A DNA stretch of 64,000 bases, from positions 186,001-250,000 of the forward strand of contig NZ_JACHJQ010000005.1 of assembly GCF_014203735.1 (NCBI RefSeq). The letters run 5' to 3'. Below, piece after piece: positions 4,377 to 61,948 of the stretch. How positions within the stretch are numbered: the first letter of the stretch is position 1; the number at the start of each line of letters is the position of its first letter. Under the pieces are notes generated by a model, which was not told the origin of the DNA, made no database searches, and saw nothing but the letters and a program-made list of their open reading frames with translations. Source of the DNA: Actinophytocola algeriensis. Lineage in GTDB: Bacteria > Actinomycetota > Actinomycetes > Mycobacteriales > Pseudonocardiaceae. Made by a program: the position numbers and the translations under genes.

Positions 4377-4545
4377 GCGTGTACCTCCCCAGAGTGACAG
4401 TGCAGATGCACATGCAGCCATCGATGCCAGGCCTAACGGGCCCGCGGCGGGGAGGTTGCGGTTTCAATCAACAAATCCGAGGAGATCTCAGGAGTGTCAC
4501 CCACTTGGAGCAGAAACCCGGCCAAGTGAGCAATGCATTGCGCTG

Positions 4546-5478
4546 TCAGGCTTTGGCGCGGCGAAGGCGTTCGGCCGCTTGCGCGCGGACGGCGTCGCAG
4601 GACACCGGCGCGTCGCCGTGCAGGGACTCCCAGCGGGCGTTGTGCGCCGCGGCCCACAGGCTCGCGGCCCACGCGATCTCCAGTTCCTCCTCGGTGAACC
4701 GGCACCCCCGGAGATCCTGGTAGGCCGCCAGGAACGCGGCGGAGCTCTCGACCGGCGCCAGGGTCGGCGGTGAGGCACTGGCGAACGTCCCGCTCGCCGC
4801 GCCCACCAGCGCCGCTTCCGGTTGCCAGGCAAGGCTGTCCCAGTCGTGCACGGCCCACACGTCGACGTCGTGCCAGCGGAGGTTCTGCGCTTCGAAGTCG
4901 GCGTGGCCGAGCACGCACGGCAGGTCGGTGGCCAGCAGCCGCTTGCGTACCCGGTCGGCGGTGTCGACGACGTACGCGGGTACGGCGCTCTGGTCGCGCT
5001 CGTCGAGAAAGTCGATCGCGGGCCACAGGCCGGGATCCGTGTGGTCCCAGCGGGCCCAGCGCGGGTTCGGCAGCGGTGGCACGACCGTCACGTCGGTCAG
5101 TTCGGCCATCAGCCGGGCGAACACGGCCGCGTAGTGCACCGCGATGTCCGGCGAGTCGCCGCGCAGCAGGTCACCACCGGGCCGGGACTCCTCGGCGTGC
5201 ACGGCCAGCGCGCCGACGGCGACCGGCGGCGTGATCGGCAGGGCGCACGGGAAACCCCGCTCCGCCAGCCGGGTCTGCGCGGTGACGCACGACGCGGCGC
5301 GACCGTCGTCCTCCCGCGCCTTCACCACGACGTCGCGCCCGTCGGCGAGCCGCAGCCCGTACACCGCCGAGATCGACCGCCGTTCGAACACCACCTCGAC
5401 CGGTTCGTTCCCCAGCACCTCCGCGCACCAGGCGGGCAACCAGTCCGGCAGATCGTCCTGCGGCACGGAGAGGGACAC
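4546..5478 (-). CDS. Phosphotransferase, APH/choline-kinase fold
   Basis: 310 residues from a GTG at 5478. The kinase-like fold is shown by the Lys strand DGRDVVVKAREDD, the catalytic loop VLGHADFEAQNLRW (H-x-D-x4-N) and the metal-binding VHDWDSLAWQP. Members phosphorylate aminoglycosides, homoserine, choline or other small alcohols; this one cannot be assigned a substrate. The frame stays open far upstream through the neighbouring genes, so the start rests on where similarity begins (VSLSVPQDDLPDWLPAW). It is divergent from the methyltransferase gene. Confidence 0.8.
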   Translation of the reverse strand: MSLSVPQDDLPDWLPAWCAEVLGNEPVEVVFERRSISAVYGLRLADGRDVVVKAREDDGRAASCVTAQTRLAERGFPCALPITPPVAVGALAVHAEESRPGGDLLRGDSPDIAVHYAAVFARLMAELTDVTVVPPLPNPRWARWDHTDPGLWPAIDFLDERDQSAVPAYVVDTADRVRKRLLATDLPCVLGHADFEAQNLRWHDVDVWAVHDWDSLAWQPEAALVGAASGTFASASPPTLAPVESSAAFLAAYQDLRGCRFTEEELEIAWAASLWAAAHNARWESLHGDAPVSCDAVRAQAAERLRRAKA

Positions 5479-5586: not shown

Positions 5587-6474
5587 GTGGACGACAGTGC
5601 AGCGGAGATAGTCCCCCCTGGTGTCGACGTGAGCAGGCCGAGCGTGGCCCGCGTCTACGACTACTACCTCGGCGGCAGCGCCAACTGGGCGGTGGACAGG
5701 GAGTTCGGCGACCGGGTGCTGCAGAGTTTCCCGCTCCTGCGCGACGTCGCCATCGCGAACCGGATGTTCCTCAACCGGCTGGTGCGGTACCTGACCAAGC
5801 AGGGCATCCGGCAGTTCCTGGACGTCGGCGCCGGTGTGCCGACCGCGGGCAACACCCACCAGATCGCCGACGAGATGGTCGCGGGCCAGGGGCGCACGCC
5901 CGACACGCACGTGGTGTACGTCGACTACGAGCCGATCGCCGTGGCCCACGCCGAGATCGTCCTCGAGAAGGAGGGCGACACCGACCGGCACGGGGTGATC
6001 AAGGCCGACCTGCGCGAGCCCGACGACCTGTGGGAACGCGCCGTGGCGACCGGACTGCTCAACCCCGACGAGCCGGTCGCGCTGTTGTTGATCGCGGTGC
6101 TGCACGTCCACCAGCCCGGCGCCGACGGCGTCACCGACATCGGGCCGGCGTCGGTCGCGCGGCTGCGTGAGCTGCTGCCGGTCGGCTCGTACCTCGCGAT
6201 GTCGCACATCACCGACGAAGGCGTCCCGCCGGAGGTCGGCGCGAACCTCGTCGAGCTGAAGCGGATGTACGACACGTCGAGCAGCAGCAACGGCATCTGG
6301 CGCGCCCACAAGGACATCGAGGCCATGCTCGGTGACTTCGAGCTGGTCGAGCCGGGGTGGGCCTGGCTGCCGGAGTGGCGTCCCGAGGAGACCGGGCCGA
6401 CCGTTCGTTCGATCGCGTTTCCCACCCCGAACCACGCTGTCGGATGGGCGGGGGTCGGCAAGAAGGTCCGCTGA
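5587..6474 (+). CDS. SAV2177/DUF574-type SAM-dependent methyltransferase
   Basis: About 295 residues. It shows the hallmarks of the actinobacterial SAM methyltransferase family PF04672: SRPSVARVYDYYLGGSANWA near the N-terminus, NRMFLNRLVRYL, motif I FLDVGAGVPTAGNTHQ, acidic motif VVYVDYEPIAVAHA, then LLLIAVLHVHQP and SYLAMSHITDEG. Substrates of this abundant family are mostly unknown. GTG at 5587 is favoured because GGAGG lies 9 bases upstream; ATG at 5569 in the same frame is possible. A TAACAT box at 5542-5547 could be its -10. Confidence 0.85.
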   Translation: MDDSAAEIVPPGVDVSRPSVARVYDYYLGGSANWAVDREFGDRVLQSFPLLRDVAIANRMFLNRLVRYLTKQGIRQFLDVGAGVPTAGNTHQIADEMVAGQGRTPDTHVVYVDYEPIAVAHAEIVLEKEGDTDRHGVIKADLREPDDLWERAVATGLLNPDEPVALLLIAVLHVHQPGADGVTDIGPASVARLRELLPVGSYLAMSHITDEGVPPEVGANLVELKRMYDTSSSSNGIWRAHKDIEAMLGDFELVEPGWAWLPEWRPEETGPTVRSIAFPTPNHAVGWAGVGKKVR

Positions 6475-6510
6475 GCCGGCGGTTTGTTTCGGCAACGTGC
6501 CCCCGCCGGC
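6475..6510. terminator. Inverted repeat between convergent genes
   Basis: GCCGGCGG at 6475-6482 pairs with CCGCCGGC at 6503-6510 across a 20-base loop. It starts at the stop codon of the methyltransferase and lies downstream of the convergent reductase. There is no T-run, so terminator function is only plausible. Confidence 0.35.
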
Positions 6511-6545
6511 CTTCCGGACGCGGTAAGTGTTGGGGGACAACAGTT

Positions 6546-7214
6546 CTAGCGCGTCGCGGCTTGCACCGCTGCTCGGACGTCGGCCGTGGGGGCCGGGGTG
6601 CCGTCCGGGTTGTCGAACGGGCCGTAGGGCGTGCCGTACGCGGGGGTGTCCGGCTCGAAGCGCCAGCTCTCGGACAGCGGACCGACCTCGACCGTGTCGT
6701 AGCCGATCGCGTCCAGGAACGCTGTCACCGTCTTGGTGGCGTCGGCGTCGTCGCTCGCGATGGGTAGTGCCGTGCGGTCGGTGCTTCCCGCCGGGCGGGC
6801 CAGGGCCGCGAGGTGGCCGGAGTAGATGTTGTTGAACACCTTCACGAGTCGCGCGGTGCCCAGGTGGCTCTGCTCCAGCTCGGCGCTGGTCGTGGTGCCC
6901 TCGTCCAGCTCGGCGAAGTGCCCGTCGCGCTGGGGGTAGTAGTTGTTCGTGTCCAGTACGACCTTGCCCGCGAGCTGCGCGGTGGGCAGGTCGCGGTGGG
7001 CCTTGAACGGCACGCTCACCACGACGAACTCGCCCGCCTCGGCGGCTTCCCCCGCAGTGGCCGCCCGCGCCTTGGGGCCGAGGTCGGTGACCAGGTCGGC
7101 CAACGTCTCCGGGCCGCGCGAGTTGCTCAGCACGACGTCGTACCCGGCCGCGACCACGAGCCGCGCGACCGTGGCGCCGATGTTCCCGCTCCCGATGAAT
7201 CCCACTGTCGTCAT
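6546..7214 (-). CDS. NADPH-dependent F420 reductase-like oxidoreductase
   Basis: 222 residues. The N-terminus MTTVGFIGSGNIGATVARLV is a Rossmann GxGxxG site. VVLSNSRGPETL resembles the segment that selects NADPH in F420H2:NADP oxidoreductases. VVVSVPFKAH and KVVLDTNNYYPQRDG match the predicted NAD-binding fold of that family, and LVKVFNNIYSGHLAALARP follows it. Many such proteins act on substrates other than F420, so the exact reaction is open. It lies 38 bases downstream of the kinase gene on the same strand and may be co-transcribed. Confidence 0.8.
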   Translation of the reverse strand: MTTVGFIGSGNIGATVARLVVAAGYDVVLSNSRGPETLADLVTDLGPKARAATAGEAAEAGEFVVVSVPFKAHRDLPTAQLAGKVVLDTNNYYPQRDGHFAELDEGTTTSAELEQSHLGTARLVKVFNNIYSGHLAALARPAGSTDRTALPIASDDADATKTVTAFLDAIGYDTVEVGPLSESWRFEPDTPAYGTPYGPFDNPDGTPAPTADVRAAVQAATR

Positions 7215-12549: not shown

Positions 12550-15500
12550 GTGTCGGCAGCGCTGCCTTTCCCCGCCCCTGTCCGCCGAACGAAGCGGGTC
12601 TGGCTCGCCGCCGCGCTCGCACTGGTGTTGATCGTGACCGGCTCGGTCGCCGCGGGGGCGGATCGCGGGCCACGGGACGTCCGGCTGAGCGGCCTCGCCG
12701 TCGAGAAGAAGGTCCAGCCGGTCGGCATCGACCTGCGCCACCCGCGGTTCTCCTGGGTCATCGAGACGCGGGCGCGCGGGGTCGAGCAGCGGTCCTACCG
12801 GCTGCGGGTCTCGAGCGCGGGTGGTGGCCGGCCCGTGTGGGACAGCGGTGTGGTCCGCTCCCGGGAGTCGGCCAACGTGGAGTACCGGGGCCCGGCGCTG
12901 GCGGCCGCCACCGACTACACCTGGCACGTGGACGTCGTGACGACGCATGGCGAGGCCGCGGCGGACGCCACGTTCCGGACCGGCCTGCCCGCGCAGCGGG
13001 ACTGGGCGGGCAGCACGTGGATCGGCAACGAGCGCGTGCCGGACGAGGCGACCGACCTGACCTTCGCCGGCGCGTCGTGGATCTGGACGCCGGGGAACAG
13101 CGCACCGGGGGAGGACCGCGCCTTCCGCGCGACCCGGGTCAGCCCCGACGGCAGGACCGCGACGGGCGTCGAGGTCCTGATCACCGCGGACGACGCGTAC
13201 GAACTCCTGCTCAACGGCACCGAGATCGGCGCGACCGAGGCGACCGAGAACAGCTGGCAGCAGTCACAGCTCCACCGGGCCGCGGCGGCACCCGACCGCA
13301 ACGTGCTCGCGGTGCGGGTGCGCAACGGCGCCGACTCGCCCGGCGGGCTGATCGCCGTGGTTCGACTGTCCTATGCGGACGGAACCGTCGAGACGTTCAC
13401 CACCGGCACCGGCTGGAAGGCGACCGCGGGCGTGCCGGACGGCTTCGCCGGTCCCGGCTTCGACGACTCCGGCTGGGACAGCGCGGCGGTGTTGACCACC
13501 TACGGCGGTGCCCCGTGGGGCAGCCAGGTGCGGCCGCCGAAGCAGACCCCCAGGCCCGCGCCCCTGCTGCGGCGTGAGTTCGAGGTGGGCAAGCGGGTCC
13601 GCGACGCCACGCTCTACCTCGCCGCCGGCGGGTACGCGAACGTGTCACTCAACGGCAGGCCTGCGAGTGACGAGGTGCTGTCGCCCGGGTTCACCGACTA
13701 CGACGACACCGTCCAGTACACCGCGATCGACCTGACGAAGGCGTTGCGGCCGGGCACCAACACGCTCGGGATGGAGCTGGGCCGCGGCTTCTACGGCATG
13801 ACCGGCGGCAACGTGTGGCGGTGGGAGTCCCCGCCGTGGCACGACGACCCGGTCGTGCGCGCGGTGCTGCACATCGAGTACACCGACGGCAGCACCGAAC
13901 GCGTCGGCACCGACGACTCCTGGCGGATCCACGACGGCCCGACGGTCTTCGACGACCTGTACGCGGGCGAGACCTACGATGCGCGGAAGGTCCAGCCGGG
14001 CTACGACACCACCCGCTTCGACGACAGCGGGTGGGCGCGGGCGAGCGAGGTGCCCGGACCGCGCGGTGTGCTCGTCAACCAGCGCCAGCAGCCGATCCGC
14101 GTCACCGGGTCGCTGCCCGCCGTGGAGATCACCGAACCGGTCGCCGGCACGTACGTGGTCAAGTTCCCCCGGGTGATCGCGGGCTGGGTGCGGTTCACCG
14201 CCAGTGGTCCCGCTGGCACGACGATCCGCGCCGCCCACGGCGAGAAACTCACGGCCGACGGCCGCGTGAACATGAGCAACAACGGCGGTTTCCAGTCCGG
14301 CTTCCAGTCCGACCACTTCGTCCTCGCGGGCACGGGCAAGCCCGAGTCGTGGGAGCCCCGGTTCTCCTACAAGGGTTTCCAGTACCTCGAGGTGACCGGC
14401 TGGCCGGGTGGCACACCGCCGCTGTCGGCCTTCACCGCGAAGGTGGTGCACACCGACGCCGAGGAGACCGGCACGTTCGACAGCTCCAGCGACACCATGA
14501 ACCGCACGCACCGCGCGGTGGTCGACACGCTGCTGAACAACATCCACGGCATCCCCACCGACACGCCGATGTTCGAGAAGAACGGCTGGACCGGCGACGC
14601 CGCACTGGGCGCCGAGATGTTCATGACGAACCTCGACACGCACGAACTGTTCGCGAAGTGGATGCGGGACCTGCGGGAGACCAGGGATGTCGAGGGCAGG
14701 CCGATGGTGATCGCGCCCAGCTCCGGCGACTGGGGCCGGTGGGGCGTGGCCCCGCCGTGGCACTCGGCGTACGTGCTGATCCCGTGGTGGCTGTACCAGT
14801 ACGGCGGTGACAGCAGGGTGCTGCGGGAGAACTACGACGGCATGAAGGCCTACGTGGACCTGGAGTACGGCCGGACCGACGGCGGGATCGTGCCCGATCC
14901 CCGGCTCGGCGACTGGGTGAGCCCGGAGGCGAGCCCCGGCGGCGGCAACGCACCGGAGGACCTGCGTGTCTCCGGGACCGCCTACCTGTACGTGATGCTC
15001 ACGTCGATGCGCCGCAGCGCGGAGTTCCTCGGCAAGGACGCGGACGCCGCGCTGTTCGCGCGGCACGCCGCCGTGGTGAAGGACGCGTTCAACGCCACCT
15101 TCCTCGACCGCGGCGCAGGCCACTACCGCGGGGTCGGCGACCGCGGCTACCGGCAGACGCACAACGTGCTCGCGGTGGCGTTCGGCCTGACACCGGACGA
15201 GGCGACCACCAGCAGCACGGTCGACAGCATCGTGGCGGACGTGCGCGCCAGGGGGACGAAGCTCAACACCGGCGTGCTGGGCACGAAGTACCTGCTGCCG
15301 GTGCTGACCGAGCACGGGCACGCGGACGTCGCCTACGAGCTCGCCGAGCAGAAGGAGTACCCGAGCTGGGGCTTCATGCTGGAGAACGGTGCCACGTCGA
15401 TGTGGGAGCACTGGGCGCTGGCGGCCCGCTCCCGGGGGCACTACTTCCTCGGCACCGTCGACGACTGGTTCTACCAGTACGCCGCCGGGATCCGGCCGTC

Positions 15501-16023: not shown

Positions 16024-16030
16024 CTCGGGG

Positions 16031-17890
16031 TCAGGCAGGCACCGTCCACTTCTGGTTGGCGCCGCCGGTGCAGGACCAGATCTGGAGCTTCGCGCCGTTG
16101 GCGGTGTTGTTGTCCCGCACGTCGAGGCACTTACCGCTGCCCACGTTGACCAGATCGCCGTTCGACGAGGGCGTCCACCGCTGGTTGGCGCCGCCGAAGC
16201 AGTCCCACAGCTGCACCGCGGTGCCGTCCGCGGTGCCGTTGCCGGTCACGTCCAGGCACTTGCCCAGGCCGCGGACCGTCCCGTCGGAGGCGAGGGTCCA
16301 CTGCTGGTTCGGGCCGGACGTGCACGTCCACAGCTGTGGCTGGTTGCCGTTGGCGGTCGAGCCGTCGGTGACGTCCAGGCACTTGCCGCCGAGGCCCGTG
16401 ATGGGACCGGTCCGGCCCTCTGGCGGGTTGGTGCCGCCGTTGCCCGGCCAGGTGAAGGTCGCCATCGCGCCACCGGCCAGCTGGTAGCCGAACGTCTGAC
16501 CGCCGTAGGACACCTGGAAGTTCTGCGTGCCACCGCTGTTGAGCGCGACGAGCACGATCGTGCCGTCCGGGTTGCGGAACGCGACGTTCTGGATGCCGCC
16601 CTCGCCGTAGCCGGTCGAGTCGATCCGCACCGCGCCGGGCGGCACGAACTTGCTCAGGTGCCCGAGCACGTAGTACTCGGCGTTGTACGTGACGCTGCTG
16701 CCGTTCGTCGTCACGACGCCCGTGCAGTTGCCGCAGCTGCCGATGACCGGGCCGTTGTTGCCGTCCAGCGCCAGGTTCCACGTCGTGACCGTGCGGGCCC
16801 AGTTGCGGGTGGTGCCGATCGCCAGGTTGATGCCCTGCCAGCGCAGCGTGTCGCGGAAGGTCGCCGCGTCGTTGGCCGACTCTGTGCCGGAGCACTCGGT
16901 GAAGAAGATCTCCTTGTTCGGCTGGGCGTTGTGCACCACCGACTGTCCACTCGGGTTGCCGCCGTAGCAGTGCCACGCCGACCCGACCACGTTGTTCCCC
17001 GCGCCGTTGTTGACCTGCTGCGGGTAGTTCGTGTCGTCCCAGTTGTGGTCGTAGCCGAGCAGCTTCGCGTTCTGCCCGGCCGCACGCAGCTTCGGCACCA
17101 GGTTGTTGATGATGTTGACCTGCTGCTGGGCCGGCATCAGCATGCCCGGGTAGCCGGGCGGGGAGAAGTTCGGCTCGTTCTGCACGCTCAGGTAGTCGAT
17201 CGGCGCGCCGGCGGCCCCGTACGCCTGCGTGAACTTGACGAGGTAGTCGGCGTACACCCCGATCTGGTCGTCGCGCAGTGAGCCGCCGATGAGGTTGTTG
17301 TTGTTCTTCATCCACGCTGGCGCGCTCCACGGCGACGCCATGATCGACAGCGTGGGGTTCAGCTGCCGCGCCTGCCGGACCAGCGGCAGGATGTACGCGT
17401 TGTCGTGCGCGACGGAGAACCGCGACAGGCTCGGGTCGGGTGCGCCGTCGTTGTAGGTGTAGAAGCTGCGCGAGAAGTCCGTCGCGCCGATCGGCTGTCG
17501 AAGGAAGCTCATGCCGACGCCGCTGTCCGGGTTGAACAACGCGTTCATGATCTCGTCGCGGCGGGGTGAGTTGAACACGTTCCACGCGGCCGCGTCGGTG
17601 AACGAGGCGCCGAAGCCCACCATGGACTGGTAGGTGCTGTTCGGGTTCACCGAGATCACGGGCCCGCTGCCGCCGCCGGACCCGAACTCGACGTTTCCTT
17701 GCTGGCGCAACAGGTTGGCGCGGTCGCCGGTGGTGAGCCAGACGTTGACGGTCGGCGCCGCCGCCGCCGGTGCGGCCGGGATGGTGAGCAGCGCCCCGAC
17801 GGTGGCCGCCACCGCGGTCACGACGGCGGCCACCCTTGTTCTCGACTTCGCGGAGCTTGCGGAACGAACGTCGAACACAGTCGTCGACAT
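16031..17890 (-). CDS. Secreted GH30 glycosidase with C-terminal ricin-B lectin (CBM13)
   Basis: 619 residues. A long Sec-type signal region (VAAVVTAVAATVGALLTIPA, then APAAAA) precedes a GH30 (beta/alpha)8 barrel. The acid/base Glu is in YLSVQNEPNFS and the nucleophile Glu in IFFTECSG. SPWSAPAWMK, SAWHCYGG and MATFTWPG are family landmarks. After a GTNPPEGRT linker comes a ricin-B trefoil of three repeats (GKCLDV...QLWTC, ...QRWTP). Members hydrolyse glucosylceramide-like, beta-1,6-glucan or xylan substrates; the target is not resolved here. AAGGAGC precedes the ATG. It is second in an operon with the GH30 gene 50 bases upstream. Confidence 0.9.
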   Translation of the reverse strand: MSTTVFDVRSASSAKSRTRVAAVVTAVAATVGALLTIPAAPAAAAPTVNVWLTTGDRANLLRQQGNVEFGSGGGSGPVISVNPNSTYQSMVGFGASFTDAAAWNVFNSPRRDEIMNALFNPDSGVGMSFLRQPIGATDFSRSFYTYNDGAPDPSLSRFSVAHDNAYILPLVRQARQLNPTLSIMASPWSAPAWMKNNNNLIGGSLRDDQIGVYADYLVKFTQAYGAAGAPIDYLSVQNEPNFSPPGYPGMLMPAQQQVNIINNLVPKLRAAGQNAKLLGYDHNWDDTNYPQQVNNGAGNNVVGSAWHCYGGNPSGQSVVHNAQPNKEIFFTECSGTESANDAATFRDTLRWQGINLAIGTTRNWARTVTTWNLALDGNNGPVIGSCGNCTGVVTTNGSSVTYNAEYYVLGHLSKFVPPGAVRIDSTGYGEGGIQNVAFRNPDGTIVLVALNSGGTQNFQVSYGGQTFGYQLAGGAMATFTWPGNGGTNPPEGRTGPITGLGGKCLDVTDGSTANGNQPQLWTCTSGPNQQWTLASDGTVRGLGKCLDVTGNGTADGTAVQLWDCFGGANQRWTPSSNGDLVNVGSGKCLDVRDNNTANGAKLQIWSCTGGANQKWTVPA

Positions 17891-23359: not shown

Positions 23360-23439
23360 GCGGGCACCACCCCCACCACCCGAACGAAGCGCGGGGCACA
23401 CACCGCACACCGCACCGCGCACCACCCCGCACCCCGTGG

Positions 23440-23516
23440 CCAACCCGAGGCCATCCCGGAGACCTGCCCCTCCGGCGAGGAGGCCCGTCCGGCAGGACGC
23501 CCGTCCGGCGAGGACA
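23440..23516 (-). repeat. Dispersed intergenic repeat, copy A
   Basis: Read on the minus strand, 23516-23483 is identical over 34 bases to 61882-61915 on the plus strand. After 16 extra bases the similarity resumes (CAGGTCTCCGGGATGGCC). It contains two GCCGGACGGGC units. It lies between the PBP and the convergent peptidase and shows no coding signal. Confidence 0.75.
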
Positions 23517-23528
23517 ACGCACCCCGCA

Positions 23529-23577
23529 AACACGGCACCGGCCGACGGGAAGCGATCCCGCCGGCCGGTGCCGTGTT
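23529..23577. terminator. Bidirectional hairpin terminator
   Basis: AACACGGCACCGGCCG at 23529-23544 pairs perfectly over 16 bp with 23562-23577, and the interior adds GGGA/TCCC pairing. It sits between the convergent PBP and peptidase genes, 10 bases past the peptidase stop. Confidence 0.85.
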
Positions 23578-61881: not shown

Positions 61882-61948
61882 TGTCCTCGCCGGACGGGCG
61901 TCCTGCCGGACGGGCAGGTCTCTGGGATGGCCGGCAGCCTCGGGTGAG
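61882..61948 (+). repeat. Dispersed intergenic repeat, copy B
   Basis: Bases 61882-61915 match the minus strand of 23483-23516 exactly. Copy B lacks a 16-base insert of copy A, then continues with CAGGTCTCTGGGATGGCC and CTCGGGT. It lies in the 189-base gap between the CutA-like gene and the PRC-barrel gene. No gene is seen in that gap. Confidence 0.75.

Follow-up and report, generated by a model that had tools for sequence, protein, structure and literature searches.

Dispersed hairpin repeats of Actinophytocola algeriensis as probable decayed copies of a non-coding locus of pSAM2-type integrative conjugative elements

Two intergenic sites in a 64,000-nucleotide stretch of the Actinophytocola algeriensis genome (the window) match one another in opposite orientation, raising the question of what kind of repeat they represent and where it comes from. 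An initial annotation described a 34-base exact inverted match, similarity continuing beyond it, a 16-base indel and repeated GCCGGACGGGC units, and proposed a small interspersed element. The exact match is real: positions 23483–23516 and 61882–61915 form the sole fully complementary pair among the 25 listed. The further similarity is equally genuine and extends through GCCATCCC(G/A)GAGACCTGCC at 23450–23468 on the plus strand and 61913–61931 on the minus strand. The indel proves to be one additional mini-hairpin in copy 1, which has three perfect mini-hairpins where copy 2 has two, and the GCCGGACGGGC units correspond to the mini-hairpin modules read on the opposite strand. The 10-mer CCCGTCCGGC by itself is not enriched (44 occurrences in the window versus 38.8 expected). 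As described, the copies are intergenic, each sitting in a gap between convergent predicted genes; those beside copy 1 resemble what we take to be a penicillin-binding protein and a secreted hydrolase.

Both window sites are truncated copies of a dispersed hairpin repeat. In the full element of ∼250 nt, arm a and its inverted repeat, arm b, enclose a further variable stem; a loop, segment c and a mini-hairpin with a GGCGA loop follow. Segment c repeats arm a, and the mini-hairpin is multiplied in A. algeriensis. The following parts are recognizable in the window:

23430–23449, plus strand: copy 1, remnant of the loop between b and c, as in other copies (ACCCCGTTGCCAACCCGAG), without arms a and b
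23450–23468, plus strand: copy 1, segment c (GCCATCCCGGAGACCTGCC), the most conserved core, whose pattern is matched at 124 genome sites
23470–23482, plus strand: copy 1, mini-hairpin 1 (CTCC-GGCGA-GGAG), missing in copy 2
23487–23498, plus strand: copy 1, mini-hairpin 2 (GTCC-GGCA-GGAC)
23503–23515, plus strand: copy 1, mini-hairpin 3 (GTCC-GGCGA-GGAC)
61932–61943, minus strand: copy 2, sequence normally left of arm a (CCGAGGCTGCC), fused to c, a form without the a-b hairpin
61913–61931, minus strand: copy 2, segment c (GCCATCCCAGAGACCTGCC)
61900–61911, minus strand: copy 2, mini-hairpin GTCC-GGCA-GGAC
61883–61895, minus strand: copy 2, mini-hairpin GTCC-GGCGA-GGAC

The RNA structure check that the annotation suggested shows the window copies folding no better than shuffles (z −1.2 and +0.3). 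Between copy 1 and the end of the minus-strand gene lies a separate, very stable hairpin (23529–23577; −44.6 kcal/mol, z −7.8), which is probably a terminator; a simple scan found no U-tract terminator at that hairpin. Elsewhere in the window, positions 16029–16387 hold three imperfect 107-nt repeats, arranged head-to-tail and 66–70% alike.

The window pair is not a chance match, because the core pattern (at most two mismatches) occurs at 124 genome sites, 63 on the plus and 61 on the minus strand, versus one site for the reversed pattern. A BLAST search with 96 bases returned at least 46 matches in the same genome (40 of 227 first-look candidates scored). The annotation had allowed that an absence of further copies would point to local duplication; more than 100 exist. 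Copy states and placements were read at 104 of the 124 sites, relative to genes predicted in this analysis. All 104 lie outside predicted genes, which together with the copy number supports the proposal of a small interspersed element: 54 are in convergent gaps, 39 in tandem gaps, 6 in divergent gaps and 5 at a locus edge, so that convergent gaps hold 54 of the 99 copies with both neighbors placed. Gaps of at least 20 nt in the window number 6 convergent, 20 tandem and 10 divergent, and those of at least 100 nt number 3, 10 and 10, two of the three convergent ones being those of the window copies themselves. Other gaps of at least 100 nt in the A. algeriensis loci number 3, 27 and 24. Copies in tandem gaps show no orientation preference toward chromosomal genes (22 opposite to and 17 in the same direction as the genes).

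The neighbors of these copies (101, one per copy) are ordinary genes, and Phage_integrase, RepSA and GntR are absent from the 25 families listed for them, each with at least two members. Between closely spaced copies in three regions, no gene is an evident transposase by eye. Within 100 nt to the left of arm a, several loci (L032, L037, L040, L161 and L183) have further hairpin motifs (GAAGGGGCCCTTC, GAAAGCGCCTTTC and near variants); these motifs, found beside many copies, may be separate repeat families.

Most dispersed copies are incomplete. Arms a and b are both present in 21 of the 104, b only in 3 and a only in 1; 31 have the sequence left of a fused to c, and 48 fit neither form. Arm b (at most one mismatch) was found at 32 genome sites, two of which read as an a/c hybrid. 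Perfect mini-hairpins number 0, 1, 2 and 3 in 14, 58, 25 and 7 copies, respectively, and a mini-hairpin of the CTCC-GGCGA-GGAG type immediately follows c in 82. The a-b hairpin may have been lost by slippage between the direct repeats a and c, as suggested by the fused forms, which are the outcome expected of such slippage.

Homology between the copy in locus L093 and those in L099, L214 and L215 spans 252–257 nt, from arm a to ∼30 nt beyond the mini-hairpin, and reaches 292 nt with L112; for some other pairs of full elements it extends to ∼380–500 nt. Counted as one set per genome (43 genome-level lineages), arms a and b pair at five offsets in 42, 42, 41, 43 and 42 lineages, and at the four variable offsets none of 1000 shuffles scores as high. 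Pairing of b with c at the same number of offsets occurs in 41, 31, 29, 13 and 7 of 43 lineages, with 1000, 0, 48, 16 and 772 of 1000 shuffles as high. In an alignment of 32 sequences, a model with b:c and P4 helices leaves 93.2% of cells paired, versus 30–53% when the pairing is slid. The predicted folding energy of one full element is −143.8 kcal/mol (z −7.3). Judged by eye, the a-b inverted repeat is internal to the element, and no coding capacity was noted in it. Segment c includes GGAGACCTGCC, which resembles a B12 box; a cobalamin riboswitch was therefore considered and set aside, as no such Rfam match was found. Upstream of the element in L093, positions 5900–6950 have low GC (0.49–0.61) and no predicted gene. 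In three loci of genome G017 (L275, L283 and L286), degenerate repeated units (CTCAAAGCGACCCGCAAGGCCAGGGTGA...CGAAAACCC and variants) replace the GGCGA mini-hairpins 3′ of the element.

Several lines of evidence connect the full element to pSAM2-type integrative conjugative elements (AICEs). The proteins flanking full copies outside A. algeriensis include Phage_integrase (6), RepSA (3), GntR (3), UTRA (2) and IstB_IS21 (2) among 74 scanned of 83, the nine left out being mostly short; the integrase is the recurring neighbor. Loci L074 and L232, from different genera, have both flanks in common, and L093 and L099 have one flank in common. As the flanking genes of its copies differ, a role of the repeat in controlling a single gene family was rejected. 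RepSA is present in 19 of 20 genomes picked for carrying the element and in 0 of 14 control genomes. Among 24 RepSA genes scoring above 450 bits, a split of our own choosing, 15 have a full copy on the 5′ side, on the same strand and 2.2–10.6 kb away, and two (in G035 and G105) have the element 0.2–0.3 kb past the RepSA 3′ end on the opposite strand; for the other 7, no nearby element is among the matches listed. Nor was one seen by eye among the listed matches near 16 lower-scoring RepSA genes. A split RepSA gene in G017 has the element ∼11.8 kb upstream.

Twenty regions were read, 18 with the element, as selected for, and two contrasts (L419 and L420) with none at E 0.01. A direct repeat of 35–73 nt of the tRNA 3′ region (the att repeat) was found in 10 of the 15 tRNA-holding regions tested and not found in 5. 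The element lies between both att repeats in all 10 AICEs where both were found, at 248, 253, 256, 261, 282, 428, 914, 1146, 1686 and 1893 nt from the nearer one, which is at the end away from repSA. The tRNAs used include Lys, Pro, Arg, Gly, Val and Phe, so the position of the element belongs to the AICE and not to a single insertion site. There is good support for the intact repeat being a conserved non-coding locus in AICEs of the pSAM2 type. In G090, a second element lies at 2169–2285 of L403, just outside the AICE att repeat, on the same strand as the inner one and 1.6 kb from it.

A. algeriensis has an AICE of its own (locus L401, contig C3 of genome G000, ∼75.55–86.87 kb), integrated in tRNA-Lys. 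It runs from an att repeat through a full element, small genes, FtsK_SpoIIIE (35 bits versus a cut-off of 24), DUF2637, RepSA (517 bits), HTH_17 and Phage_integrase to the tRNA with the second att repeat. In locus coordinates, its integration end comprises:

12616–13773: Phage_integrase gene
13838–13913: tRNA-Lys
13840 and 2552: the two occurrences of the 35-nt direct repeat

Judged by its sequence, L401 would qualify as an AICE, with a tyrosine integrase beside a tRNA, flanking repeats, a replication initiator and an FtsK-like transfer protein. Its element ends in the common GCCC/GGGC hairpin, in contrast to the CTCC/GGAG hairpin of the 82 dispersed copies noted above, and BLAST with it matched 46 of the 104 dispersed copies at ∼80–83% identity at best. 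Given both differences, this resident copy is not the direct parent, and the dispersed subfamily either predates the resident AICE element or is separate from it. Two similar DUF218 genes lie near the AICE end, one just outside (1656–2375) and one inside (4498–5163).

The repeat is widespread in the family. At least 64 of 120 sampled Pseudonocardiaceae genomes have model matches, each between 1 and at least 30, and they represent at least 32 of 46 genera. The counts are lower bounds, as no more than 30 or no more than 14 candidates per genome were scored in searches covering over 40 genomes. An order-wide search found matches in at least 19 of 249 genomes, one of them outside the family (G326), and the bare core with hairpin also occurs in G043, from another family. 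The same-genus genomes listed have 0–3 element matches. No match was found in plasmids, phages or viral contigs at the settings used. Copies cluster by genome or genus, with 18 label changes on a 137-tip tree versus a shuffled minimum of 61, falling to 7 once two congeners are merged; this tree is without G139, G092 and G018, takes in loosely matched truncated A. algeriensis copies, and at least one of its tips (the second L092 entry) is doubtful. Gene conversion may add to the grouping by genome. Of 19 model matches on the 8.21-Mb contig of G017, 17 are located either below 1.54 Mb or beyond 6.6 Mb.

Evidence for the spread of the repeat comes from copy counts and clustering rather than from an observed insertion event. 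Flanking target duplications, a further check suggested by the annotation, were not detected in 110 elements with ends uncertain by some bases (4.58 versus 4.62 in control gaps taken from partly overlapping loci). None of 8 sites aligned between two congeners is a clean empty site: three lack the element and hold 66–171 nt of tail-like or other sequence instead, four sites are partial, and one carries an inserted stretch. In regions compared between G080 and G017, 10 of 15 G080 copies have an orthologous copy, with L271 aligned through. Same-genus genomes are not syntenic at the window locus, their best matches being 70–84% identical. RAYT (PF01797, the Y1 transposase) is absent from the A. 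algeriensis genome, and PF01797 occurs in 2 of 11 copy-rich versus 1 of 12 copy-poor genomes. In L288 of G017, a stretch of somewhat less than 1 kb that by eye resembles a transposase gene interrupts an element copy.

Taken together, these data make it likely that the repeat in its intact form is a non-coding AICE locus, that the two window sites are decayed copies of it and that the dispersed copies derive from a locus of this kind. We infer the direction of descent, the route of spread and the function of the locus; the opposite order, with AICEs having captured a chromosomal repeat, is conceivable as well. In the excised AICE, the locus would be a putative cis-acting site, namely a single-strand or double-strand origin or the transfer site clt. 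A cis-acting DNA site would fit because the element lies near the AICE end, has a mostly fixed orientation to repSA, has no coding capacity noted and forms strong hairpins. Copies descended from it were probably multiplied by some activity in several lineages, and most are likely inert or act merely as hairpins at gene ends. A bolder extension, which is unlikely, is that the locus is the AICE rolling-circle origin or transfer site and that RepSA, an HUH-type protein, or Tra acts on the dispersed copies. RepSA might then have copied the locus across the chromosome, much as is proposed for RAYTs and REPs; alternatively, the copies might at present act as clt-like sites of the chromosome through which an AICE can pass on host genes. 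If so, a conjugative element would have seeded more than 100 of its own cis-sites in its host.

Descent from an AICE locus has to be weighed against other origins. A REP- or BOX-like chromosomal repeat in its own right, carried by AICEs through insertion into or beside them, would account for the many dispersed copies without AICE genes nearby, the extragenic and convergent placement with modular hairpins, and the extra copy just outside the att repeat in L403. It is nevertheless an unlikely account, since orientation and end position are constant in AICEs at different tRNAs and genomes with one to three listed copies often hold one in an AICE. The covariation of a with b could instead reflect a structured RNA, which might be a switch with either a or c as the partner of arm b, and the excess of b:c pairing at offset 2, weak at offsets 3 and 4, is consistent with one. 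Against this, the excess is absent at offset 5, single-stranded DNA explains the pairing equally well, the copies show no orientation preference toward chromosomal genes and no Rfam family covers the element at gathering score. In 12 loci searched at E ≤ 1, the sole match to the element was MIR820 in L150, a chance-level hit to a long-hairpin family (31.8 bits versus a cut-off of 196). A structured RNA is accordingly rated improbable.

A MITE moved by a DDE transposase would likewise be short, non-coding and multi-copy with an inverted repeat; the lack of target duplications and the internal position of that repeat by eye leave it very little credence. Chance or local duplication has nothing in its favor besides the window pair itself, and the 124 sites versus one for the reversed pattern refute it.

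The preferred reading, descent from an AICE locus, gives this dispersed palindromic repeat a definite origin in a conserved non-coding locus of integrative conjugative elements, and makes the question of how REP-like repeats without a known transposase arise testable. Should the locus serve as an origin or transfer site, its scattered copies could affect chromosomal gene movement among antibiotic-producing actinomycetes.

The single-strand origins of rolling-circle plasmids, such as sti of pIJ101, are orientation-dependent, non-coding and form strong hairpins. The element would resemble them in all three respects. It also has covarying helices, as structured RNA families do. In the open-access literature, the repeat is not described among the top matches listed for search topics that did not include AICEs. 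As presented in the parts of PMC3218068 that treat AICEs, pSAM2 and other RepSA AICEs have the same kinds of genes as those around the element: an FtsK-like Tra, RepSA, an HTH excisionase-like protein, a tyrosine integrase and a tRNA att site. The main text of that source is without the terms “inverted repeat” and “non-coding,” and its AICE passages do not describe the element locus. According to the same passages, RepSA-like proteins have rolling-circle motifs (HUH and a catalytic tyrosine), AICE Tra proteins bind clt, and TraB of pSVH1 binds clt-like chromosomal regions in S. coelicolor (PMC3218068). Like clt, the element would be a cis-acting AICE or plasmid locus with chromosomal look-alikes.

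Among chromosomal repeats, REPs as characterized in portions of PMC3733652 are also multi-copy extragenic palindromes, located mostly between convergent or unidirectional genes, and some types have no dedicated transposase. The REP unit is 20–40 bp, in contrast to ∼250 nt for the full element; a Y1/RAYT gene is absent here, and the element is a multi-copy extragenic palindrome whose dispersed copies are mostly without the a-b palindrome. One table in PMC12306157 includes REPs of three Actinomycetota (Arthrobacter, Acidipropionibacterium and Acidimicrobium); therefore, going by that table, REP-type repeats are not new in the phylum. The BOX, RUP and SPRITE repeats of Streptococcus pneumoniae, as outlined in sections of PMC3049150, are unrelated in host and sequence, and BOX and RUP differ further in having target duplications and terminal inverted repeats, that of the element being internal by eye. 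These repeats resemble the element in being modular, present in about a hundred copies, lineage-restricted, able to form stem-loops and slow to turn over, and the 0–3 perfect mini-hairpins per copy in A. algeriensis parallel the variable module number of BOX.
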